Assembly (NCBI GenBank): GCA_021299175.1
Contig: JAJTFY010000042.1
Coordinates: 1-42,126, forward strand
DNA length: 42,126 bases
Direction of reading: 5' to 3'
From: Chitinophagaceae bacterium
Lineage (GTDB): Bacteria > Bacteroidota > Bacteroidia > Chitinophagales > Chitinophagaceae
Position 1 is the first letter of the stretch. Each line of letters begins with the position of its first letter. The notes beneath the pieces are model-generated. The model was given only the letters and a program-made list of their open reading frames with translations. It searched no databases and was not told the DNA's origin. This document shows positions 8,470 through 22,294 of the stretch, in pieces. The position numbers and the translations under genes were made by a program.

Positions 8470-10007
8470 TCAGTTGACCGGAATGAGCTGCTGTTCACTT
8501 TCGTTGCCTGTTCGGTCAACTGCGGTAACCATGATGTTTTTGAGGGTGGATGTTTTCCCAGCAGTGTCTGCATTGAGCAGCTGAAGAGAAGCATTCAGTT
8601 GCGCCTTACCCATGATCGTGTACTCCCATTTGTTGTCGTACTGCGCATAGAGGATCCAACCCGTGGCATCCTTGTCTTTGGAAGACCATTGGATGTTGAG
8701 CTTGTCCTTGCTTTTGGTGATGGCCACCTGAGGCGAAGCAGGAGCGATTGCGTCCAGCCATGGGCTGGCCGGCACCAGCGCAGGAATGCTATAAGGGCCA
8801 GCCTTCAATTCCTTGGTTAGGGTTGGGTTCTTGGTAAGCGATGAAACACTCCAATGCACGGCGCCCATGCTCTTGGGGAGCATGCTACGGGTGAGGCTGA
8901 TTTCGTCCAGCACTTCCTTGTTGTTGGTAACACCGTTCTTGTTGGTGCCGATGCTTATCCCCGGCCAGAGGTGGCGCTGCAGGGTGTTTTCACTCTGCCA
9001 CCATCCCAATAGATCTGGAAATGACTGACCTTGTTTGTTGATGGGCCAGTAGAGCTGGGGCGTGAAATAATCAATCCAGCCTTTGTTCAGCCAAAGTTTG
9101 GCGTCTGCATAAAGCTTTTCGTATTGGTCAAATCCGGTAACGGTAGAAGGATAGCCGGGGCGCCAGATCCCAAACGGACTCAGGCCAAACTTGACATGCT
9201 TTTTCTCCTGTTTGATCTCAGCATAAAGCCTTTCAATCAGTTTGTTGACCCCATCCCTTCTCCAATCTCCCCTGGAGAGTTTACCACCGCTGTTGACATA
9301 GGCAGACCAGCTTTTGTCATCTGGAAAATCCTTATCGCCATTGTAGGAGGGATAGGGATAGAAATAATCGTCAAAATGAATGCCGTCTACGTCGTAGCGT
9401 TTCACAATGTCCATCACCACCCTGGAAGTATGGTCCTGCGTGGCCTTCATGGCCGGGTCCATCCACCAGAATCCCTCTTTCAGCAGGTAGACCCGCTCCG
9501 GGTTGGTCTTGACAACAGACCTGCTGCTGATATCAGGAAATAAGACCAGGGCTCGATATCACTTTTGTAAAGGGCATCCGCCTGCGGACGAACCTGAAAA
9601 ATCACTGCATTGAACTTGTTTTCCTGCAGATAATTCAGGATGCTAAGGGCCTCTGCTTTTTGTTCTTCAGTGGAAAGCCCGGGTTTGCTGGGCCAGTTGA
9701 TGTTGGCAACCGTGGCAATCCAGGCAGCGCGGAATTCGCGCAAAGGCGATACAAAAGGCTTGTAGGGTGTTTTTTGTACAGGTGGAGTTGTCTGTTTGGT
9801 GGCCGCAGCAGTGGGTTTTGGTTTCACAACTTCCTCGTTGGGCGCCTTTACAGGTGCCTTTGGTTTTACCGCAGGCGCCTGGGTAATCTCTTCAACCGTT
9901 GTAGCCTTGTAAGGGAAGACTTTATCATTGATTTTATTGAAGAATGCGCAGCTGTTCAAGAGGAGGGAGGCAAGCAGGAGGGTAGAGATGGATGAAAAGT
10001 GACGCAT
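8470..10007 (-). pseudogene. Family-10-like glycosylhydrolase (GHL10-type) lipoprotein, disrupted by internal deletion plus frameshift
   Basis: N-terminal half MRHFSSISTLLLASLLLNSCAFF...EFRAAWIATVANINWPSKPGLSTEEQKAEALSILNYLQENKFNAVIFQVRPQADALYKSDIEPWSYFL (ORF 9480-10055); C-terminal half in another frame SVVKTNPERVYLLKEGFWWMDPAMKATQDHTSRVVMDIVKRYDVDGIHFDDYFYPYPSYNGD... (ORF 8470-9462, readable upstream of its Met). Confidence 0.82.
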
Positions 10008-10073
10008 GGTCTTGGTTTTGCTGCAAATTACTACAGACCAAGCATACATCCCCATAATTTGATAGCTTTACGC

Positions 10074-12934: not shown

Positions 12935-15838
12935 ATGAAAAGGTTTAAGCGAATTGCCAGTCCATTTTTTTTGTTTTTATGTTTTGCTTGTACCCAAACC
13001 TATGCTCAAGAATACATTGTATTTAATGCAGTAAGGTTTACATCTAGCAAAACAAATAATCAGCTTGATAATATTCAAAATATTTCTGGGAGTGGCTTTA
13101 AATTCACTTCTCAAAATTCAACATTCGCTTTATCAAAAACTAGCAACAACGTCAATGGTACTTTGACGTATATTAATTCATCTGGGACAAAAATTAGTTA
13201 CAGTGGTTCAATTGAAGGCAAGTTTACATCTGGTAATAGTACCATAGGATTATATTTTATCAGTGGGACAAACTATTTTATTTTGGTAGTGCCGGGCTTT
13301 GAGAGTCATGGAGACCTTGATAACAATGACGATCCAAATTTCAATTCATCTGGTCCAGACTCAGAAGTTGAATCTCTGAAGACCACACAACAGGCTTCCA
13401 ACAATGTCGTAGTTACTATGGGTGATGCCAGCGCAACAGAATCTTCTTCTACTACCTATGCAACATTTACATTGAGTTTTACACAAAATAGATCTTTAAA
13501 CAATACAATTACATTCACCCCAACACTAACCAATGGAACAGCAACATCCGGTGATGATTTTTCAACTTCAATGAGTTACTCTACAGACAATTCGAACTGG
13601 ACTGCAATAACGACAACAGTTTCAGTTGCTTATGATAAAAATACAGTTTACATACGTTGTTCAATAACCGATGATACTCGACCTGAATGTGTTGAAAACT
13701 TTACATTATCAACTGGAACACTCACTCATTCTGGGACAAGGGAGGTTGACAATTACTCTGGTGTATATGGAATTGGGACAATTAATGATAACAATGACCC
13801 ATTGATTTGGAACGGATCTTCCAGCACAAATTGGGATCTTGCGGCCAATTGGACACCAAATGATCTGTCTCCGGGCTCTTGCTACTATGTACAAATTCCA
13901 GCATCACTCTCCAGGTATCCTGATTTCACCTCAAGTTCAACAAATACAACCATAGCAGGACTGAATATTGCTTCTGGAGGAAATTTGAAACTGACCAGCG
14001 GTACACTTTCTGTTAAAGGTCCAGTTGTCAATGAAGACAATACAAATGGGGTTTACAGTGATGGAACCCTTGAATTAAATGGGACTTCTGCACAAACAAT
14101 CAGCGGCACCGGTCTATTTCACAATGTCAAAATCAACAATGCAACCGGAGTTTCTCTGAGCAGTGGTTCTATTATAATCACCGGCAAACTTACTCCAACC
14201 GCAGGAGAAATTACAACCAACGGCAGATTGGTTTTCAGGCAAAATGCAACAGATCACGGAGAAGTAGGACAAATAACTGGTTGTCCGAGGACAGTGTTTA
14301 CCGGGAATGTGACCATCGAAAGATATATACCTTCCTCCAATCGTTCGTTTAGATTTCTTACACCAGGAGTCACCACTTCTACTTCAATAAAACAAAATTG
14401 GCAGGAAAACAGCAATGTTACCAACCCCAATGCTTATCCAAATACAACTGTAGGCAGCAATAATCCAATTCTGGGTTACGGTACCCATATCACAGGAAGT
14501 ACAACCGGACTAAATGGATTTGATGCAACATTGACTGGCAATCCTAGTATGTATACCTTCAATAGAAGCAATCAAACCTGGGAAGCCATTGGCAATACAA
14601 ATACCAATACATTTAGTGCCGGAGAAGCCTACAGGGTGCTCATCAGAGGAAGCAGGGCCACTGACTTAAGAACCAATACTCCGAGCCTCGACGCAACAAT
14701 AATTAGAGCAACAGGTACGTTGACTACATGTGATTGTTCTTTCAGTTATCAATCGGGGACAGGGGTTGTTGGTCTTTTGTCGAACACAGTAGGAAACTAT
14801 TCTTTCATCGGAAATCCCTATTGGTCGGTTGTAGACTTTAACAGTCTGACAATTTCGGGAATAGAGGACAATATTTACTATTGGGACCCAACCGTATCTG
14901 GTTCCCAGAACAGGGGTGCATATGTAACTTACAATAGGACAAATGGCAATCAAAATAATTCTTCAAGAGTAAATCAATATATACAACCAGGGCAAGCGTT
15001 TTTCGTAAAAACAACCAATAGCACACCAAGCATTGCATTCGGAGAAAGCAAAAAAAGCAACGGGAACAAAACCAATATATTCGAAATCAACAGGGATATT
15101 AAAGCGCCCTTAGAAGGTTCAGGACCCAATGTCACCAATGAACAATCTTCTGCAATTGAAAAAATGTTTATTTCCCTTCGAATGAAGGGAATGCCAAACA
15201 ATAGCATTAGTGACGGATGCTTGTTAAGCTACAGTGAAAATTTTAGCAATGCATACGGGAGAGAAGATGCCTCGAAAATGAGTAATCTTGACGAAAACAT
15301 AGCATTGGTAAATGACGAGATCAAACATGCCATTCTTGGAAAAAAATCTGATCAAATCCTGAGCAATGACACCACCCACATTTCACTTTGGAACTTGTAC
15401 GAAAAAACCTATACTCTCGAAATCGACCCTAGAGGAATGGCAAATGATCAGAAAATTTATTTTGTAAACAACAAAAACAGCACTTCTACCCTTTTAAAAA
15501 ACAATCAACTATTTGAATACGAGTTTCAACCTAGGGCAGGAGAAAAAACCATTAATGATTTTTCAATTATCGTGGGTAATCAAAAGGGAATTAAAAAAAA
15601 TGTTGAGAGGCTTTTGATCTATCCTAATCCAGCTAAAGATGAAATTCAGTTTATTCTCCCCAATCATGAGATAGCCAACTGGGCCAAAATATTTGATACA
15701 AATGGAAAACTTATAATCATAACACCGATTAAACAAGCTGAAAACAAACTGCGTACATCAAATCTTCCTAAAGGGAATTATTTGCTTGAGATCAAAACTG
15801 CAAACAGATCATTTACCAGTATGTTCAATAAACTTTAA
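12935..15838 (+). CDS. Large secreted protein with Calx-beta-like region and T9SS type A C-terminal sorting domain
   Basis: Signal peptide MKRFKRIASPFFLFLCFACTQTYAQ; VTMGDASATESSSTTYATFTLSFTQN...GTATSGDDFS...IRCSITDDTRPECVENFTLSTG (Calx-beta-like); C-terminus LLIYPNPAKDEIQFILPNHEIANWAKIFDTNGKLI...LPKGNYLLEIKTANRSFTSMFNKL. Confidence 0.87.
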   Translation: MKRFKRIASPFFLFLCFACTQTYAQEYIVFNAVRFTSSKTNNQLDNIQNISGSGFKFTSQNSTFALSKTSNNVNGTLTYINSSGTKISYSGSIEGKFTSGNSTIGLYFISGTNYFILVVPGFESHGDLDNNDDPNFNSSGPDSEVESLKTTQQASNNVVVTMGDASATESSSTTYATFTLSFTQNRSLNNTITFTPTLTNGTATSGDDFSTSMSYSTDNSNWTAITTTVSVAYDKNTVYIRCSITDDTRPECVENFTLSTGTLTHSGTREVDNYSGVYGIGTINDNNDPLIWNGSSSTNWDLAANWTPNDLSPGSCYYVQIPASLSRYPDFTSSSTNTTIAGLNIASGGNLKLTSGTLSVKGPVVNEDNTNGVYSDGTLELNGTSAQTISGTGLFHNVKINNATGVSLSSGSIIITGKLTPTAGEITTNGRLVFRQNATDHGEVGQITGCPRTVFTGNVTIERYIPSSNRSFRFLTPGVTTSTSIKQNWQENSNVTNPNAYPNTTVGSNNPILGYGTHITGSTTGLNGFDATLTGNPSMYTFNRSNQTWEAIGNTNTNTFSAGEAYRVLIRGSRATDLRTNTPSLDATIIRATGTLTTCDCSFSYQSGTGVVGLLSNTVGNYSFIGNPYWSVVDFNSLTISGIEDNIYYWDPTVSGSQNRGAYVTYNRTNGNQNNSSRVNQYIQPGQAFFVKTTNSTPSIAFGESKKSNGNKTNIFEINRDIKAPLEGSGPNVTNEQSSAIEKMFISLRMKGMPNNSISDGCLLSYSENFSNAYGREDASKMSNLDENIALVNDEIKHAILGKKSDQILSNDTTHISLWNLYEKTYTLEIDPRGMANDQKIYFVNNKNSTSTLLKNNQLFEYEFQPRAGEKTINDFSIIVGNQKGIKKNVERLLIYPNPAKDEIQFILPNHEIANWAKIFDTNGKLIIITPIKQAENKLRTSNLPKGNYLLEIKTANRSFTSMFNKL

Positions 15839-16168
15839 ATGGGAAATATGAAAATCAAAATTCTCATACTACTGGTTTCTTCTTTTTTATTCCTGGTAAA
15901 TATTTCTATTTCACAGGACAACAACGAAACTATATATTTTGACGAAAAAGCTTTCGAAGATTTGTTTGGCAACAGTAGTTCCAGCGAAACTTCTCAAAGT
16001 TTAAAAAATATGTTCAATGAAATATCATCAAATCCTCCTCCCTTTGATGACAACACCTCTGATGTTCCCATCGATGGAGGACTAGGATTCCTCTTGGCCG
16101 CGGGTATTGGATATGGAGCAAATAGATTAAGAAAGCACAAAAAGGGAATAAACGCGCGCCAAAAATGA
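15839..16168 (+). CDS. Small protein with exosortase-type (PEP-CTERM-like, 'PID'-type) C-terminal sorting signal; start may be 15848
   Basis: Signal peptide MKIKILILLVSSFLFLVNISIS; C-terminus VPIDGGLGFLLAAGIGYGANRLRKHKKGINARQK = short motif, hydrophobic helix, basic cluster; immediately upstream of the exosortase-like gene. Confidence 0.78.
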   Translation: MGNMKIKILILLVSSFLFLVNISISQDNNETIYFDEKAFEDLFGNSSSSETSQSLKNMFNEISSNPPPFDDNTSDVPIDGGLGFLLAAGIGYGANRLRKHKKGINARQK

Positions 16169-16773
16169 CTTCGATTAGTAGAAAAGCAATAGGAGTCTAC
16201 GCATCAATACCCCAACCTGTAAAAAAATTCCTGTTAAGATCCCTGGTGCTATTCATCATCTGGAAAGGAATGTATTTGGCTTTTTTTGCATTTCCTCGAA
16301 CATTGGATAAGCCGCTTACAAATCTTGTGGGCAAGCATTCTGCATGGTTACTCAATCACTTGAATTCCTCGAATCATTATACTGCAAAGGAAATGATTGC
16401 GGTAACACAATTCGAAGGACAAATTCAAATTGCGCCTGTTAGCAGGATTGATTTAAATGGAAAAAAAATCATGTTCATTGCAGACGGATGCAATGGGCTT
16501 GAATTGTTCATACTTTATGTGGGCTTTATATTGGCAATGCCATCAAAAGCAAAAAGAAAGCTCTTTTTTATTCCATTGGGCATAATCGTCATTCACTGTA
16601 TCAATACCCTTCGCTGTGTGGGGCTTAGCACATTGGTGGTCCATTGGAAAGCTTATTTTGATCTTGCGCACCACTATATATTTAAAATGGTGGTTTATGC
16701 TACTATTTTCCTTCTTTGGGTTAAGTTCTCGGAAGGGATTTCCTTCAAGAAAGAACTAGACCATGTTGTATAA
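16165..16773 (+). CDS. Exosortase/archaeosortase family transpeptidase
   Basis: Polytopic; catalytic-type residues in order: Cys in MFIADGCNGLELFILYVGFILAMP, Arg in HCINTLRCVGLS, His in DLAHHYIFKMVVY. Confidence 0.85.
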   Translation: MTSISRKAIGVYASIPQPVKKFLLRSLVLFIIWKGMYLAFFAFPRTLDKPLTNLVGKHSAWLLNHLNSSNHYTAKEMIAVTQFEGQIQIAPVSRIDLNGKKIMFIADGCNGLELFILYVGFILAMPSKAKRKLFFIPLGIIVIHCINTLRCVGLSTLVVHWKAYFDLAHHYIFKMVVYATIFLLWVKFSEGISFKKELDHVV

Positions 16774-17149
16774 ATCTGAAAGAAATAGGTGGATTGGAGG
16801 CCTGATTTGTATTCTGATCCTCTACACTCTATTTTATACCCTGTTCGCAGATAGGTCCTATACCTATACAATTCCCAGAAAAACCAGACACATCATTAAA
16901 TTCGGTACAACCGTAATCGTATATATAATTGGAACCTTGCATCTTGGGAAACTAAATGCTAGGTGGATGTCTCAATTATGGCATCTTATCCATATTACCT
17001 TGCTATTTATCATTACAAGTATTGGTCTGTATGATTGGGTATTTGGTATGGTATCGGTTAAAACCAAAGAAATTGCGGCATCTATGCAGGAGTTTCTTAT
17101 TTCACCTGTACTTTATTTTGCAATGGGATTGATTCAAAAGAGGCTTTAA
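16763..17149 (+). CDS. Exosortase-associated small polytopic membrane protein
   Basis: 128 aa, 3-4 predicted TM segments; start overlaps the exosortase gene end by 11 nt. Confidence 0.6.
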   Translation: MLYKSERNRWIGGLICILILYTLFYTLFADRSYTYTIPRKTRHIIKFGTTVIVYIIGTLHLGKLNARWMSQLWHLIHITLLFIITSIGLYDWVFGMVSVKTKEIAASMQEFLISPVLYFAMGLIQKRL

Positions 17150-17385: not shown

Positions 17386-20300
17386 ATGAGAAAAACAAAA
17401 CTTCTTGCTTATGGCCTCATGGTTTCGGCCATCTTGCTACTTTCTGTTTCTGTTTCGGCACAAAAGAAAGTTTCGGGAACCGTGCTGGACGCAACCTCAA
17501 ATTCACCATTGGCTGGCGCAACCATTTCCTTGAAAAATGGGACTGGAACAAGCATCACCCGTTCAGACGGTAAGTTTGAGATTGCTGCACCCGCTGGGAA
17601 AACGGTATTGACGGTTTCTTTTGTTGGCTATCAGTCGCAGGATATTCCTGTTGGCGCCAATGAATCCAATCTAACCATTTCTATGACCAGGACTGGCGAT
17701 ATGGGAGAGGTGGTTGTAATTGGATATGGCACCAAGAAGAAAGTGGATTTGACCGGGGCTATTTCCACGGTTACTGCAAAAGATATCGAATCACGCCCTG
17801 TGGCCAATGCACAGCAGGCTTTACAGGGGTTGGTCCCCAACCTTAATATCTCCGTTTCAAATGCGGGTGGAGAGCCCGGGGGTGGAATGAACATGAGCAT
17901 TCGTGGTTTAAGTTCTTTCTCCGGAAGCACTGCTCCTTTTGTTCTGGTGGATAATATCCCCATGGACATCAACAGCATCAATCCGGCTGACATCGAGACC
18001 ATAACGGTGTTGAAGGATGCAGCATCTTCTGCTATCTATGGAGCACGCGCTGCTTATGGTGTCATTTTGATCACGACCAAATCTGGTAAAAGTGGCAAAG
18101 AAAAGATGAACGTTTCTTTGCAGACAAATGTGGCACTTTCAAGACCGGTTCAGTATCCAAGGTTGGTTGATCCCATGACCTTTGCTTTGGTGTCGAATGA
18201 CGCTGCCAAAAACATCGGAAATGCGCCCTGGTATAACCAAGATGCTTTGGATCGGTTGGCGAAAAATATTGCCAAACCTGGCAGTGCCCCCGAAATGTTT
18301 GGAACAGCCGATGGTCAGAACTGGAATATTGGCTCTATGGGACTGGGTGCCGCAGCTGTAACCGATTGGTATGATGTGCTTTTCAAAGATTTTTCTTCAC
18401 GACAGAAATACAACCTCAGCGTTTCCGGGGCAAGCGAAAAAATCGATTATTATTTATCTGGTGGATGGTATAAAGAGGATGGTTTGCTCCGCTACGGCAA
18501 CGAAAGCTTCAACCGCTATAATTTTGATGGCAAGGTCAATGCTCAGGCGACCAAATGGGCGAAGGTGGGCGTTCTTTTCAAATACAATTCAGGCCTGCAG
18601 GAATTTCCATGGCAGCAGGATCTGGGAAGGGGTAGGATTTATGACATGATGTCGAAACTTAAACCTACCATGCCTGCAAAATATCCCGGAACAGATATCT
18701 GGACGTTGGAGAGCAGGATTCTGGAATGGGGAGCACAGAGGGACAATACATTGAATACGCAGATGATCCTTGCACCAAGAATTACGCTGGAGCCAATCAA
18801 GGGCTGGGTCACCAATGTGGAATTCAACTATACCAATAGCAACAACCGCAGGGAGTTCATCTCCAAGAAATATCCCTGGATGAGGCCTAATGGAGAATTG
18901 CTTATGAGTGCACAAGTGGCTACCTCATATCGCCCAAGGTTGAGTACAGACAATTATATGTCGCCCAACATCTATTCAACCTATGCAAAAAGCTTCGGCA
19001 AGCATAACTTGTCTATTATGGCGGGCTATCAACAAGAAAAATTCAAATATTTCTCTATTAATGCAGATGCTTTGTATCTGTTGAGCGACAATGTACCTTC
19101 TGTCAATACTGCGGTAGGTACCAAGACAGTTGATGATTCACAAGGCCATTGGGCTACCCAAAGCGGATTCGGAAGATTGTTGTATGACTTTAGCGACAAA
19201 TATCTGCTGGAAGCCAACTTCCGTGCCGATGCTTCTTCCAGGTTTGAGCCCGGTAAACAATGGGGGTATTTCCCTTCTGTCTCAGCGGGCTGGGTGGCAT
19301 CCAAGGAGAAATTCTATCCATTGAAAGACGTGGTCAATTACATGAAAATCAGGGGCTCATTGGGCGAATTGGGCAACCAAAGCGTATCCAATTACCTGTA
19401 TATCCCTACCATGGGAATCGGTCAAACGTCCTATCTCTTTAGCGGACAACGTTTATGGACTGTAGGTGCACCAAATATCTCGAGTGTGAATCTAAGTTGG
19501 GAAAAAGTAAGAACACTTGATTTTGGTGCAGATCTTGCTTTTTTCAAGAGAAGATTGTCCGTAACCTATGACTGGTACCAATCTTTCACTACGGATCTTG
19601 TAGGTCCGGGCGCTGCTGTACCTGCATTGCTGGGTACGGCTGTACCCAGAGAGAACTCCGGTGAGATCAGGACAAGGGGTTTTGATCTGGAATTCAAGTG
19701 GAAGGATCGAATTGGCGAAGTCTATTTTGAGATCGGTGGTAACCTTGCCAACAACATAAGCCAGGTCATGTCCTATAATAACCCTACACAAATCCTGAGC
19801 ACTTTTAGAAAAGGTCAGATACTGGGTGAACTATGGGGCTATAAAACCGATGGGCTTTTCCAAACGGCTGAAGAGATCACCAAATGGCCAAATCAATCAT
19901 TTTTATGGTCTGGAAGATGGAATACAGGTGACCTGAAATACTTGGATCTTGATAACAATGGGGTTATCAATAATGGGAAAAATACAGTCGCCGATCCAGG
20001 AGATATGCGCGTTGTAGGCAATGAGAGACCCCAATATCTTTATGGGTTTAACGGTAATGTTTCATGGAAGGGGCTGGAGTTGTCCTTTTTCTTCCAGGGT
20101 GTAGGTAAGCAAGATCTCTTCATTACTGAGATCGTGAATGGAAACGTATTCAGGGGACCTGCCAATGGACCACTTCACATGATGGTTTATACCCAGCATC
20201 TTGATTACTGGAGAGATGCATCAAGCCCATTGGGTGCAAATCCTAACGCTTACTATGCGAAACCTTACTCTGTGTTTGACGGTGACAACAGTAAGAATTA

Positions 20301-20559
20301 CGGAAGACCGGTTGATCGGTATTTGCCAAGCGGAGCCTACTGCAGACTTAAAAATCTGCGGTTGGGGTATACCATTCCTCAAAAAATAATCAACAAAGTG
20401 CAGATCAAGGGGGCTAATATTTATTTTTCTGGCGAAAACCTTTTCATTATCAACAAATTCAAATTGCTTGATCCCGAACAAACAGCAGGTAGCGCAGGTG
20501 ACGGAAGAATCTATCCCTTGTCAAAGGCCTTCTCTCTTGGATTGAATGTCAACTTCTAA
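17386..20559 (+). CDS. SusC/RagA family TonB-linked outer membrane protein
   Basis: KKVSGTVLDATSNSPLAGATISLKNG (carboxypeptidase-regulatory-like), VVVIGYGTKKKVDLTGAISTV, NPADIETITVLKDAASSAIYGARAAYGVILITTK. Confidence 0.96.
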   Translation: MRKTKLLAYGLMVSAILLLSVSVSAQKKVSGTVLDATSNSPLAGATISLKNGTGTSITRSDGKFEIAAPAGKTVLTVSFVGYQSQDIPVGANESNLTISMTRTGDMGEVVVIGYGTKKKVDLTGAISTVTAKDIESRPVANAQQALQGLVPNLNISVSNAGGEPGGGMNMSIRGLSSFSGSTAPFVLVDNIPMDINSINPADIETITVLKDAASSAIYGARAAYGVILITTKSGKSGKEKMNVSLQTNVALSRPVQYPRLVDPMTFALVSNDAAKNIGNAPWYNQDALDRLAKNIAKPGSAPEMFGTADGQNWNIGSMGLGAAAVTDWYDVLFKDFSSRQKYNLSVSGASEKIDYYLSGGWYKEDGLLRYGNESFNRYNFDGKVNAQATKWAKVGVLFKYNSGLQEFPWQQDLGRGRIYDMMSKLKPTMPAKYPGTDIWTLESRILEWGAQRDNTLNTQMILAPRITLEPIKGWVTNVEFNYTNSNNRREFISKKYPWMRPNGELLMSAQVATSYRPRLSTDNYMSPNIYSTYAKSFGKHNLSIMAGYQQEKFKYFSINADALYLLSDNVPSVNTAVGTKTVDDSQGHWATQSGFGRLLYDFSDKYLLEANFRADASSRFEPGKQWGYFPSVSAGWVASKEKFYPLKDVVNYMKIRGSLGELGNQSVSNYLYIPTMGIGQTSYLFSGQRLWTVGAPNISSVNLSWEKVRTLDFGADLAFFKRRLSVTYDWYQSFTTDLVGPGAAVPALLGTAVPRENSGEIRTRGFDLEFKWKDRIGEVYFEIGGNLANNISQVMSYNNPTQILSTFRKGQILGELWGYKTDGLFQTAEEITKWPNQSFLWSGRWNTGDLKYLDLDNNGVINNGKNTVADPGDMRVVGNERPQYLYGFNGNVSWKGLELSFFFQGVGKQDLFITEIVNGNVFRGPANGPLHMMVYTQHLDYWRDASSPLGANPNAYYAKPYSVFDGDNSKNYGRPVDRYLPSGAYCRLKNLRLGYTIPQKIINKVQIKGANIYFSGENLFIINKFKLLDPEQTAGSAGDGRIYPLSKAFSLGLNVNF

Positions 20560-20569
20560 AAAAACAGAT

Positions 20570-22294
20570 ATGAAAAAAATATATTTAATTCTATTCCTTT
20601 TCGTTGGGCTTGGAGCTGGCCTTTCTTCATGCAAGAAAGATTTTCTCAACCTGACGCCACTTGACCAAATTTCAGATCCTGAATTCTGGAAAACCGATTC
20701 TGATCTCGAGCTATACATGAATGGACTGTATAATGTTCTGCCCGGATGGAATCTCTCCGGATCCGGTGGCCATCCATTGCTTGATGCAGGAACGGACATG
20801 GCCATAACCGTCGGTTTGTTTTTAGGTGAAAAAAACCGTCTTGATGGTGCCATCAACATCCCTTCAAGCGGAGGAGGGTGGAGTTGGACCAACGTTCGTA
20901 ATGTGAATTATTTCCTGGCAAACAGCGATCGTGTCAAAACGGGAGCCCTAAAAGACCATTATACTGGGGAAGCATACTTTTTCAGGGCTTTCAACTACTT
21001 TAATTTGTTGAAGCAATTTGGTGATCTTCCTATTGTAAAGACTCCTTTGACTGTGAAGGATGAGGCCGCATTGTATGGTCCCCGCAGTTCCAGAACAGAA
21101 GTCGTGAATTTCATCCTGAGTGACCTAGACCTTGCAGTGACAAAACTGAAGAAAAAGTCTGAAGTACCGGCACAACGGATAAGCCGCGATGTGGCTTTGT
21201 TGTTAAAATCCAGGGTAGCACTTTATGAAGGTACCTGGGAAAAGTACCATCAAAATGATGCATTCAAAGGAACGACGGATGGTAAGGCATTTCTTACCGC
21301 AGCTGCCAATGCTGCAAAAGCAGTAATGGATGGGGCAATCTATAGGTTGACCACAGGCAATACGAATCAAGTGTATTATGAGCTTTTTAATCAGGTGAAC
21401 CTGCTTTCAAATTCTGAAGTCATGCTTTGGAGGGGTTACACTTTTGCATTCGGTAGCAATGCACTTCAGACCTGGCCCAATGGATCTGGTTTTACCCAGG
21501 ATATGGTCAACCTTTACCTGTGTACTGATGGATTGCCCATAGGCGTAAGTCCGCTGTATCGTGGTGATAAGGATATAAGAAATGTAGTCATGAACCGCGA
21601 TCCAAGGTTTGTTCAAACGGTCATGAACCCAGGGGACCCTGTCACGATCAATTTAAAAAATGACACTACCAAGTATCTGCTCCCTTTGTTGGGAGGTGCA
21701 CAGACGGGTCCCACTGGATATGAATCACAGAAATGGCGCCGTCCACAGTTTGACCCTACAACAAACGGATTTAGTGGAGAAGTACCGTACATTATTTTTA
21801 GATATGCGGAAGCCTTACTCAATTATGCTGAAGCAAAAGCCGAATTGGGAGAATTGACCCAGGCTGATGTTAATTTGACGATCAACATGCTGAGGGCGAG
21901 GGTTGGCATGCCCAATATGAATATTGCCTCTATTCGCACTGATCCCAACTGGCCGGATTATGGTTATACGTTGAGTAATACGCTGAAGGAGATCAGAAGA
22001 GAACGCACCGTTGAGTTGATGGCGGAAGGCTTTCGACGGGATGATATCATGCGTTGGGCTGCACATAAGTTGATTATTGGTAAAAGACCCAAGGGTGCTT
22101 TTTATTCAGATGAATTAAAAAAAGCATTTCCAAATTTGCCTGTAGATGCTGCGAATTTTCTTGATCCATACAGGACTTCGCTTGTTGGAGCTGGAAGTAC
22201 CTGGGGATTCGATCCTGCTAAGCATTATCTTTTGCCCATTCCGATCAACGAGATGACTTTGAATCCAGCCATTAAACAAAATCCTGGATATTAA
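20570..22294 (+). CDS. RagB/SusD family nutrient-uptake lipoprotein
   Basis: Lipoprotein signal LGAGLSSCKKDFLNLTPLDQISD; EAYFFRAFNYFNLLKQFGDLPIVKTPL; IFRYAEALLNYAEAKAELGELTQADVNLTINMLRARVGMPN; C-terminal KHYLLPIPINEMTLNPAIKQNPGY. Confidence 0.95.
   Translation: MKKIYLILFLFVGLGAGLSSCKKDFLNLTPLDQISDPEFWKTDSDLELYMNGLYNVLPGWNLSGSGGHPLLDAGTDMAITVGLFLGEKNRLDGAINIPSSGGGWSWTNVRNVNYFLANSDRVKTGALKDHYTGEAYFFRAFNYFNLLKQFGDLPIVKTPLTVKDEAALYGPRSSRTEVVNFILSDLDLAVTKLKKKSEVPAQRISRDVALLLKSRVALYEGTWEKYHQNDAFKGTTDGKAFLTAAANAAKAVMDGAIYRLTTGNTNQVYYELFNQVNLLSNSEVMLWRGYTFAFGSNALQTWPNGSGFTQDMVNLYLCTDGLPIGVSPLYRGDKDIRNVVMNRDPRFVQTVMNPGDPVTINLKNDTTKYLLPLLGGAQTGPTGYESQKWRRPQFDPTTNGFSGEVPYIIFRYAEALLNYAEAKAELGELTQADVNLTINMLRARVGMPNMNIASIRTDPNWPDYGYTLSNTLKEIRRERTVELMAEGFRRDDIMRWAAHKLIIGKRPKGAFYSDELKKAFPNLPVDAANFLDPYRTSLVGAGSTWGFDPAKHYLLPIPINEMTLNPAIKQNPGY

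Follow-up and report, generated by a model that had tools for sequence, protein, structure and literature searches.

A conserved operon placing a type IX secretion cargo beside a PID-CTERM microprotein and an exosortase in Bacteroidota

Why would a large protein sorted by the type IX secretion system (T9SS) share an operon with an exosortase and a very small candidate exosortase substrate? The question is raised by four open reading frames (ORF1 to ORF4) on contig JAJTFY010000042.1 of a Chitinophagaceae bacterium (phylum Bacteroidota; assembly GCA_021299175.1), in a stretch of 42,126 nucleotides that was analysed as a whole and is called the window below. The large-plus-tiny pairing seen here, of a T9SS cargo with a PID-CTERM microprotein, recurs across Bacteroidota, suggesting that two sorting systems so far regarded as separate work together in surface display.

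Sorting signals of the four-gene operon

An earlier note on this DNA had described four consecutive plus-strand genes without gaps, and we reproduced the coordinates and all three junctions: the TAA stop of ORF1 abuts the ATG of ORF2 (15836-15841), ORF2 and ORF3 share an ATGA overlap (16165-16168), and ORF3 and ORF4 overlap by 11 nt (16763-16773). The features of the operon are as follows.

12935-15838, plus strand: ORF1, 967 amino acids, predicted secreted T9SS cargo with a signal peptide, a weak Calx-beta-like region, the module and a type A C-terminal sorting domain
14195-15574, plus strand: the module (ORF1 residues 421-880), an all-beta region common to nearly all PID-paired cargos
15617-15820, plus strand: type A T9SS C-terminal sorting domain of ORF1 (TIGR04183, 55.1 bits)
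15839-16168, plus strand: ORF2, 109 amino acids, predicted PID-CTERM microprotein with a signal peptide, about 50 mature residues and a PID-CTERM tail
16064-16135, plus strand: PID-CTERM sorting signal of ORF2, comprising a PIDGG motif, a hydrophobic helix and a basic end
16165-16773, plus strand: ORF3, 202 amino acids, XrtX-like exosortase candidate with Cys109, Arg150 and His169/170
16763-17149, plus strand: ORF4, 128 amino acids, multi-pass membrane protein

ORF1 had been read as a giant protein sorted by the T9SS, and the profile searches bear this out: TIGR04183 matches its C-terminus with 48.9 bits (cut-off 23) and PF18962 with 44 bits, also above cut-off. In an AlphaFold2 (AF2) model, this C-terminal domain (CTD) resembles the substrate CTDs of the T9SS translocon structures 8glj and 8glk (target template modelling (TM) scores of 0.81 and 0.78), and a gene for the sortase PorU, the T9SS component that was searched for, lies elsewhere in the genome (1271.7 bits against a cut-off of 420). 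By these matches, ORF1 is classed as a type A T9SS cargo. In PID-paired cargos the CTD is preceded by a region of about 460 amino acids, the module, which carries NPY.S and AFFV motifs and near-invariant Asp residues and for which Pfam holds no family. The AF2 model of ORF1 residues 421-967 (predicted local distance difference test, pLDDT, 83.6; predicted TM-score, pTM, 0.71) renders the module as all-beta; a fold search with this whole model returned generic immunoglobulin-like proteins at low TM-score, the CTD match being the only meaningful one.

The layout described for ORF2, with a signal peptide, about 50 mature residues and a C-terminal PIDGGLGFLLAAGIGYGANRLRKHKK segment, was recovered in full. 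The signal peptide ends in SIS before a Q, and NF046080 scores 46 bits (cut-off 26) over residues 76-99; a further possible start at 15848 (MKIKIL...) would yield a more typical signal peptide. ORF2 is accordingly annotated as a predicted PID-CTERM protein, and a genome-wide count of the same C-terminal motif, which the earlier note had proposed, gave one such protein above cut-off.

In ORF3, the Cys/Arg/His order seen earlier falls at residues 109, 150 and 169/170; Cys109 and Arg150 are invariant among 40 homologues, and His169/His170 are conserved in at least 90%. The exosortase profile check favoured by the note was passed for the general model TIGR04178 (55.7 bits versus a cut-off of 23), with XrtX as the best subfamily, under its cut-off; TIGR04128 (XrtF) reached 79.4 bits, under its cut-off of 90, and all 40 homologues match the XrtX, XrtY and XrtF models. 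The AF2 model shows a confident multi-helix fold (pLDDT 94.5), and searches of the PDB by sequence and by fold found no related structure. On its profile matches and conserved residues, ORF3 is a predicted member of the exosortase/archaeosortase superfamily, closest to XrtX. ORF4 fell into no named family in profile searches and gave no TIGR04127 match, a direct profile comparison with hhalign being weak (39-46% probability); its homologues come after most of the exosortases examined, even where no PID gene is nearby. The family assignments of the operon lie far beyond chance, with profile E-values of 4.9e-13 (TIGR04183), 3.2e-12 (NF046080), 1.7e-37 (XrtX) and 4.6e-15 (TIGR04178).

The order CTD cargo, PID gene, exosortase and ORF4 was found again in independent genomes (L036, L037, L072, L073, L079, L087, L088 and L197); the gene neighbourhood, whose loss in relatives the note would have counted against its reading, is conserved. 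Its description of a dedicated exosortase with a single tiny substrate stands for the source genome, a 2.27 Mb draft (98% complete) with 19 type A T9SS cargos, since one exosortase and one PID-CTERM gene above cut-off make the pair dedicated in this organism. As a general unit the description proved too narrow: relatives carry up to 20 scattered PID-CTERM genes, most of them with a T9SS cargo gene of their own in front, and one or two shared exosortases located elsewhere, so that what stays constant is the pair of cargo and microprotein, with the exosortase as a shared tool.

Pairing of PID-CTERM genes with T9SS cargos

PID-CTERM proteins are small as a class. NF046080 spans just the 25-residue tail, and its detection therefore carries no length bias. 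Each search listed its best 150 matches; among the 150 listed for the family, the frames had a median of 81 amino acids and a maximum of 144, and among the matches listed across Bacteroidota they reached up to 183. The usual build is a signal peptide, some 11-15 residues with a high content of Asp, Pro and Gly (median near 11, with lengths taken from a rough signal-peptide rule) and the tail. Positive genomes hold from 1 to 20 such genes; these counts are lower bounds, since a PID-like microprotein, VPLDGGLSLILLAAGAG, located behind a module cargo (L260, genome G079), fell below the NF046080 threshold used and escaped the count. A variant order, exosortase followed by ORF4 and then the PID gene, occurs at three loci (L078, L080, L083), where the PID proteins are longer (107-183 amino acids) and rich in Asp, Asn and Tyr.

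In the family of the window, the ORF upstream of the PID gene has a type A CTD at 58 of 69 loci, with gaps between cargo and PID gene that are mostly a few to about 100 bases. Genome G237 offers a dense test of this arrangement: 17 of its 18 listed PID genes lie directly behind one of its 99 CTD genes, where about 0.9% would be expected per site (for L108, L113 and L127, the upstream cargo was assigned from CTD match coordinates). The pattern extends to other Bacteroidota families, where 17 PID loci of an independent set of 21 have a T9SS cargo upstream, as judged with a CTD profile trained on the family of the window only; two loci of that family and one without upstream sequence had been excluded from this set. 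Among the four exceptions are two flavobacterial loci (L292, L293) in which the PID gene follows an unrelated gene of about 320-330 amino acids whose C-terminus is alike in both. Taken together, we consider it very probable that the cargo-microprotein pairing is real and functional. Fusion of the PID tail to the cargo by readthrough or frameshift was dismissed, because the gaps vary and nearly every microprotein has its own signal peptide. A literature search, whose scope left subscription journals and the NCBIfam comments on NF046080 and NF046081 aside, found no publication on PID-CTERM or on the pairing; for XrtX, XrtY and XrtN it returned unrelated papers only, with the same limit on subscription journals.

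The paired cargos also form a distinct class. In G237, a module profile trained on paired cargos matched 17 of 17 paired and 2 of 46 unpaired cargos; given this choice of training set, the contrast was repeated with a profile trained without G237, which still found the module in 16 of 17 paired versus 3 of 47 unpaired cargos (p = 3e-11). Downstream of one of these three unpaired cargos (L096) stands a short cargo gene, itself followed by a PID gene. The converse rule, that the module implies a PID gene, was rejected on account of module cargos in other genera with no PID gene behind them; the microprotein is hence not required for every module protein, and we claim only the direction from PID gene to module. 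In genus g91 (L264-L271), many very large module-bearing T9SS cargos, with frames of up to 6500 amino acids, were observed, with no PID gene behind those examined; each of these genomes has one PID gene and one exosortase.

Across 299 genomes of the family, PID genes were present in 95, exosortases in 123 and the module in 122, with PID and exosortase together in 85 and PID and module together in 86. Relatedness was handled solely by collapsing to genera, at which level (104 genera) the PID-exosortase and PID-module associations persist (p = 1e-14 and 5e-12). The window's own genus includes two genomes with PID gene, exosortase and module, three with none of them and one with the module only.

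Finally, the two partners covary. Similarity between cargo CTDs tracks similarity between mature segments (r = 0.42, p = 0.006 in G237; p = 0.0005 when pooled and permuted within genomes), while no association was seen with similarity between PID tails (p = 0.32 and 0.26). This is the pattern expected if a shared exosortase reads the tail and the mature segment goes with its cargo. The earlier idea that ORF2 may anchor ORF1 or act as its scaffold agrees with both this covariation and the near-obligate pairing with one class of cargo.

A two-pathway reading and its rivals

The best explanation we can offer for the operon, with an even chance of being right, is a two-pathway surface-display unit. 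As its family membership predicts, ORF1 would use its signal peptide to pass the inner membrane and its type A CTD to pass the outer membrane through the T9SS. ORF2 would be a separate, co-translated partner exported by its own signal peptide. By analogy with exosortase biology, the PID-CTERM tail would park ORF2 in the inner membrane, where ORF3, with the help of ORF4, would cut it at the PIDGG motif and pass the short acidic peptide to an envelope component. The mature peptide may then serve the particular cargo whose gene comes just before its own; anchoring or assembly of that cargo, by way of the module and CTD region, is the likeliest role. The parts of this proposal differ in strength. 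Action of the exosortase on PID-CTERM proteins is probable; a role of the microprotein as anchor or assembly partner has a little less than an even chance. More tentative, and rather doubtful, is the wider proposal that an exosortase of Bacteroidota produces short anchoring peptides for type A cargos, each from the gene directly after that of its cargo, such that display of this one class of protein needs two independent C-terminal signals on two polypeptides, one read at the inner and one at the outer membrane.

Several observations weigh against a two-pathway unit. Elsewhere, attachment to anionic lipopolysaccharide (A-LPS) by PorU suffices for type A cargos, with no need of an extra partner. 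Mature segments of typically about 11 residues are short for a specific binder, and the XrtX score of ORF3 (128.9 bits for NF046081), its best among the subfamilies, lies under the cut-off of 170. Module cargos without a PID gene behind them occur in several genera, some PID genes adjoin an exosortase with no immediate upstream cargo (for example L075, L076 and L081), and the flavobacterial PID genes L292 and L293 follow unrelated genes. Duplication of the gene pair as a cassette could also yield the covariation of mature segments; the tail should then have been copied as well, though the tails may be too conserved to show a signal.

The main rival holds that the microprotein acts before outer-membrane export: held by its tail in the inner membrane, it would escort, tether or check the cargo in the periplasm until exosortase cleavage frees it and the cargo is handed over to the T9SS. 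The pairing and module data fit this scheme too, as do the translational coupling in the window and the established location of exosortases in the inner membrane. However, type A cargos without a PID partner mostly need no such help in the same genomes (G237 has about 20 PID genes versus 99 CTD matches), and a usual chaperone would be longer and less acidic than the mature segments; this scheme is fairly unlikely. It is unlikely that PID genes are mere passengers, whereby CTD-module and PID genes duplicate jointly, with no direct functional significance to the linkage itself, and the PID system acts alone. Near-identical pairs of CTD and PID genes within one genome (L099 and L100; L090, L106 and L107) are what such duplication would leave, but the pairing persists in distant families with diverged sequences and covers several CTD subtypes in a single genome.

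We regard as improbable a role of the cleaved peptide in signalling or regulation, whether by reporting cargo export to the cell or by acting between cells. Its median length near 11 residues and the many paralogues in one genome would suit such a role, but no regular adjacent sensor gene was found among the neighbourhoods examined, and the partner is one structural class of cargo rather than regulators. An ordinary dedicated exosortase with one substrate, beside a T9SS gene by chance, would match the one exosortase and one target of this genome and is very improbable, being already contradicted by the phylum-wide recurrence of a T9SS cargo upstream.

Should the two-pathway unit hold, some type A cargos, for which PorV and PorU have been considered sufficient, would have partners of their own, like type B cargos. 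The exosortase substrates of Bacteroidota do not resemble PEP-CTERM proteins, yet loss of xrtF has effects like those of T9SS mutations; the pairing offers a concrete and testable connection of exosortase to T9SS and singles out the partner, the module and the peptide for assay.

The window is rich in genes for glycan use. Directly downstream of the operon (17386-22294) lie genes for a SusC-like TonB-dependent receptor and a SusD-like protein, and farther along come those for a sulfatase, for a glycoside hydrolase and for a protein like sialic-acid esterases. On the minus strand at 8470-10055, a gene for a glycosyl hydrolase-like 10 protein (GHL10, PF02638) is broken up into two ORFs that lie in different frames, covering profile positions 1-57 (9480-10055) and 131-287 (8470-9462), which reads as a frameshift or an assembly error.

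Relation to known sorting systems

The operon is most readily compared with the XrtX/PID-CTERM system (NF046081, NF046080), with which it shares a PID signal above cut-off, XrtX as the best match of ORF3 and the strong co-occurrence of exosortase and PID genes. It departs from that system in the score of ORF3 (128.9 bits, under 170) and in its T9SS partner, of which the model names make no mention. PEP-CTERM/EpsH systems have a similar tripartite C-terminal signal and an exosortase with Cys, Arg and His. They usually have many substrates and are tied to exopolysaccharide loci, whereas the putative PID-CTERM substrates are all microproteins and mostly tied to T9SS cargos. The attachment of type A cargos to A-LPS by PorU in P. 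gingivalis involves the same CTD type, and a PorU gene is present here, but that pathway comprises no exosortase or microprotein. A VimA-like link to PEP-CTERM systems has been noted (PMC7468200).

XrtF and its associated protein (TIGR04128, TIGR04127; Fjoh_1448 and Fjoh_1449 of F. johnsoniae) likewise pair a short exosortase of Bacteroidota with a small multi-pass membrane protein encoded after it, although ORF3 scores 79.4 bits, under the XrtF cut-off of 90, and ORF4 has no TIGR04127 match. Deletion of xrtF or Fjoh_1449 reduces sand colonisation and biofilm formation and abolishes zorbs, as do porU and porZ deletions (PMC10936215). Type B T9SS cargos are anchored by neighbouring dedicated partners (PMC9143113, PMC12618676), as in SprB-SprF and PG1035-PorP, where a large T9SS cargo has a dedicated and often adjacent PorP/SprF-like partner. 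The CTD of ORF1 is type A instead, and its putative partner is a 109-amino-acid predicted exosortase substrate rather than an outer-membrane barrel; in logic, though not in its components, the type B arrangement is the closest precedent.

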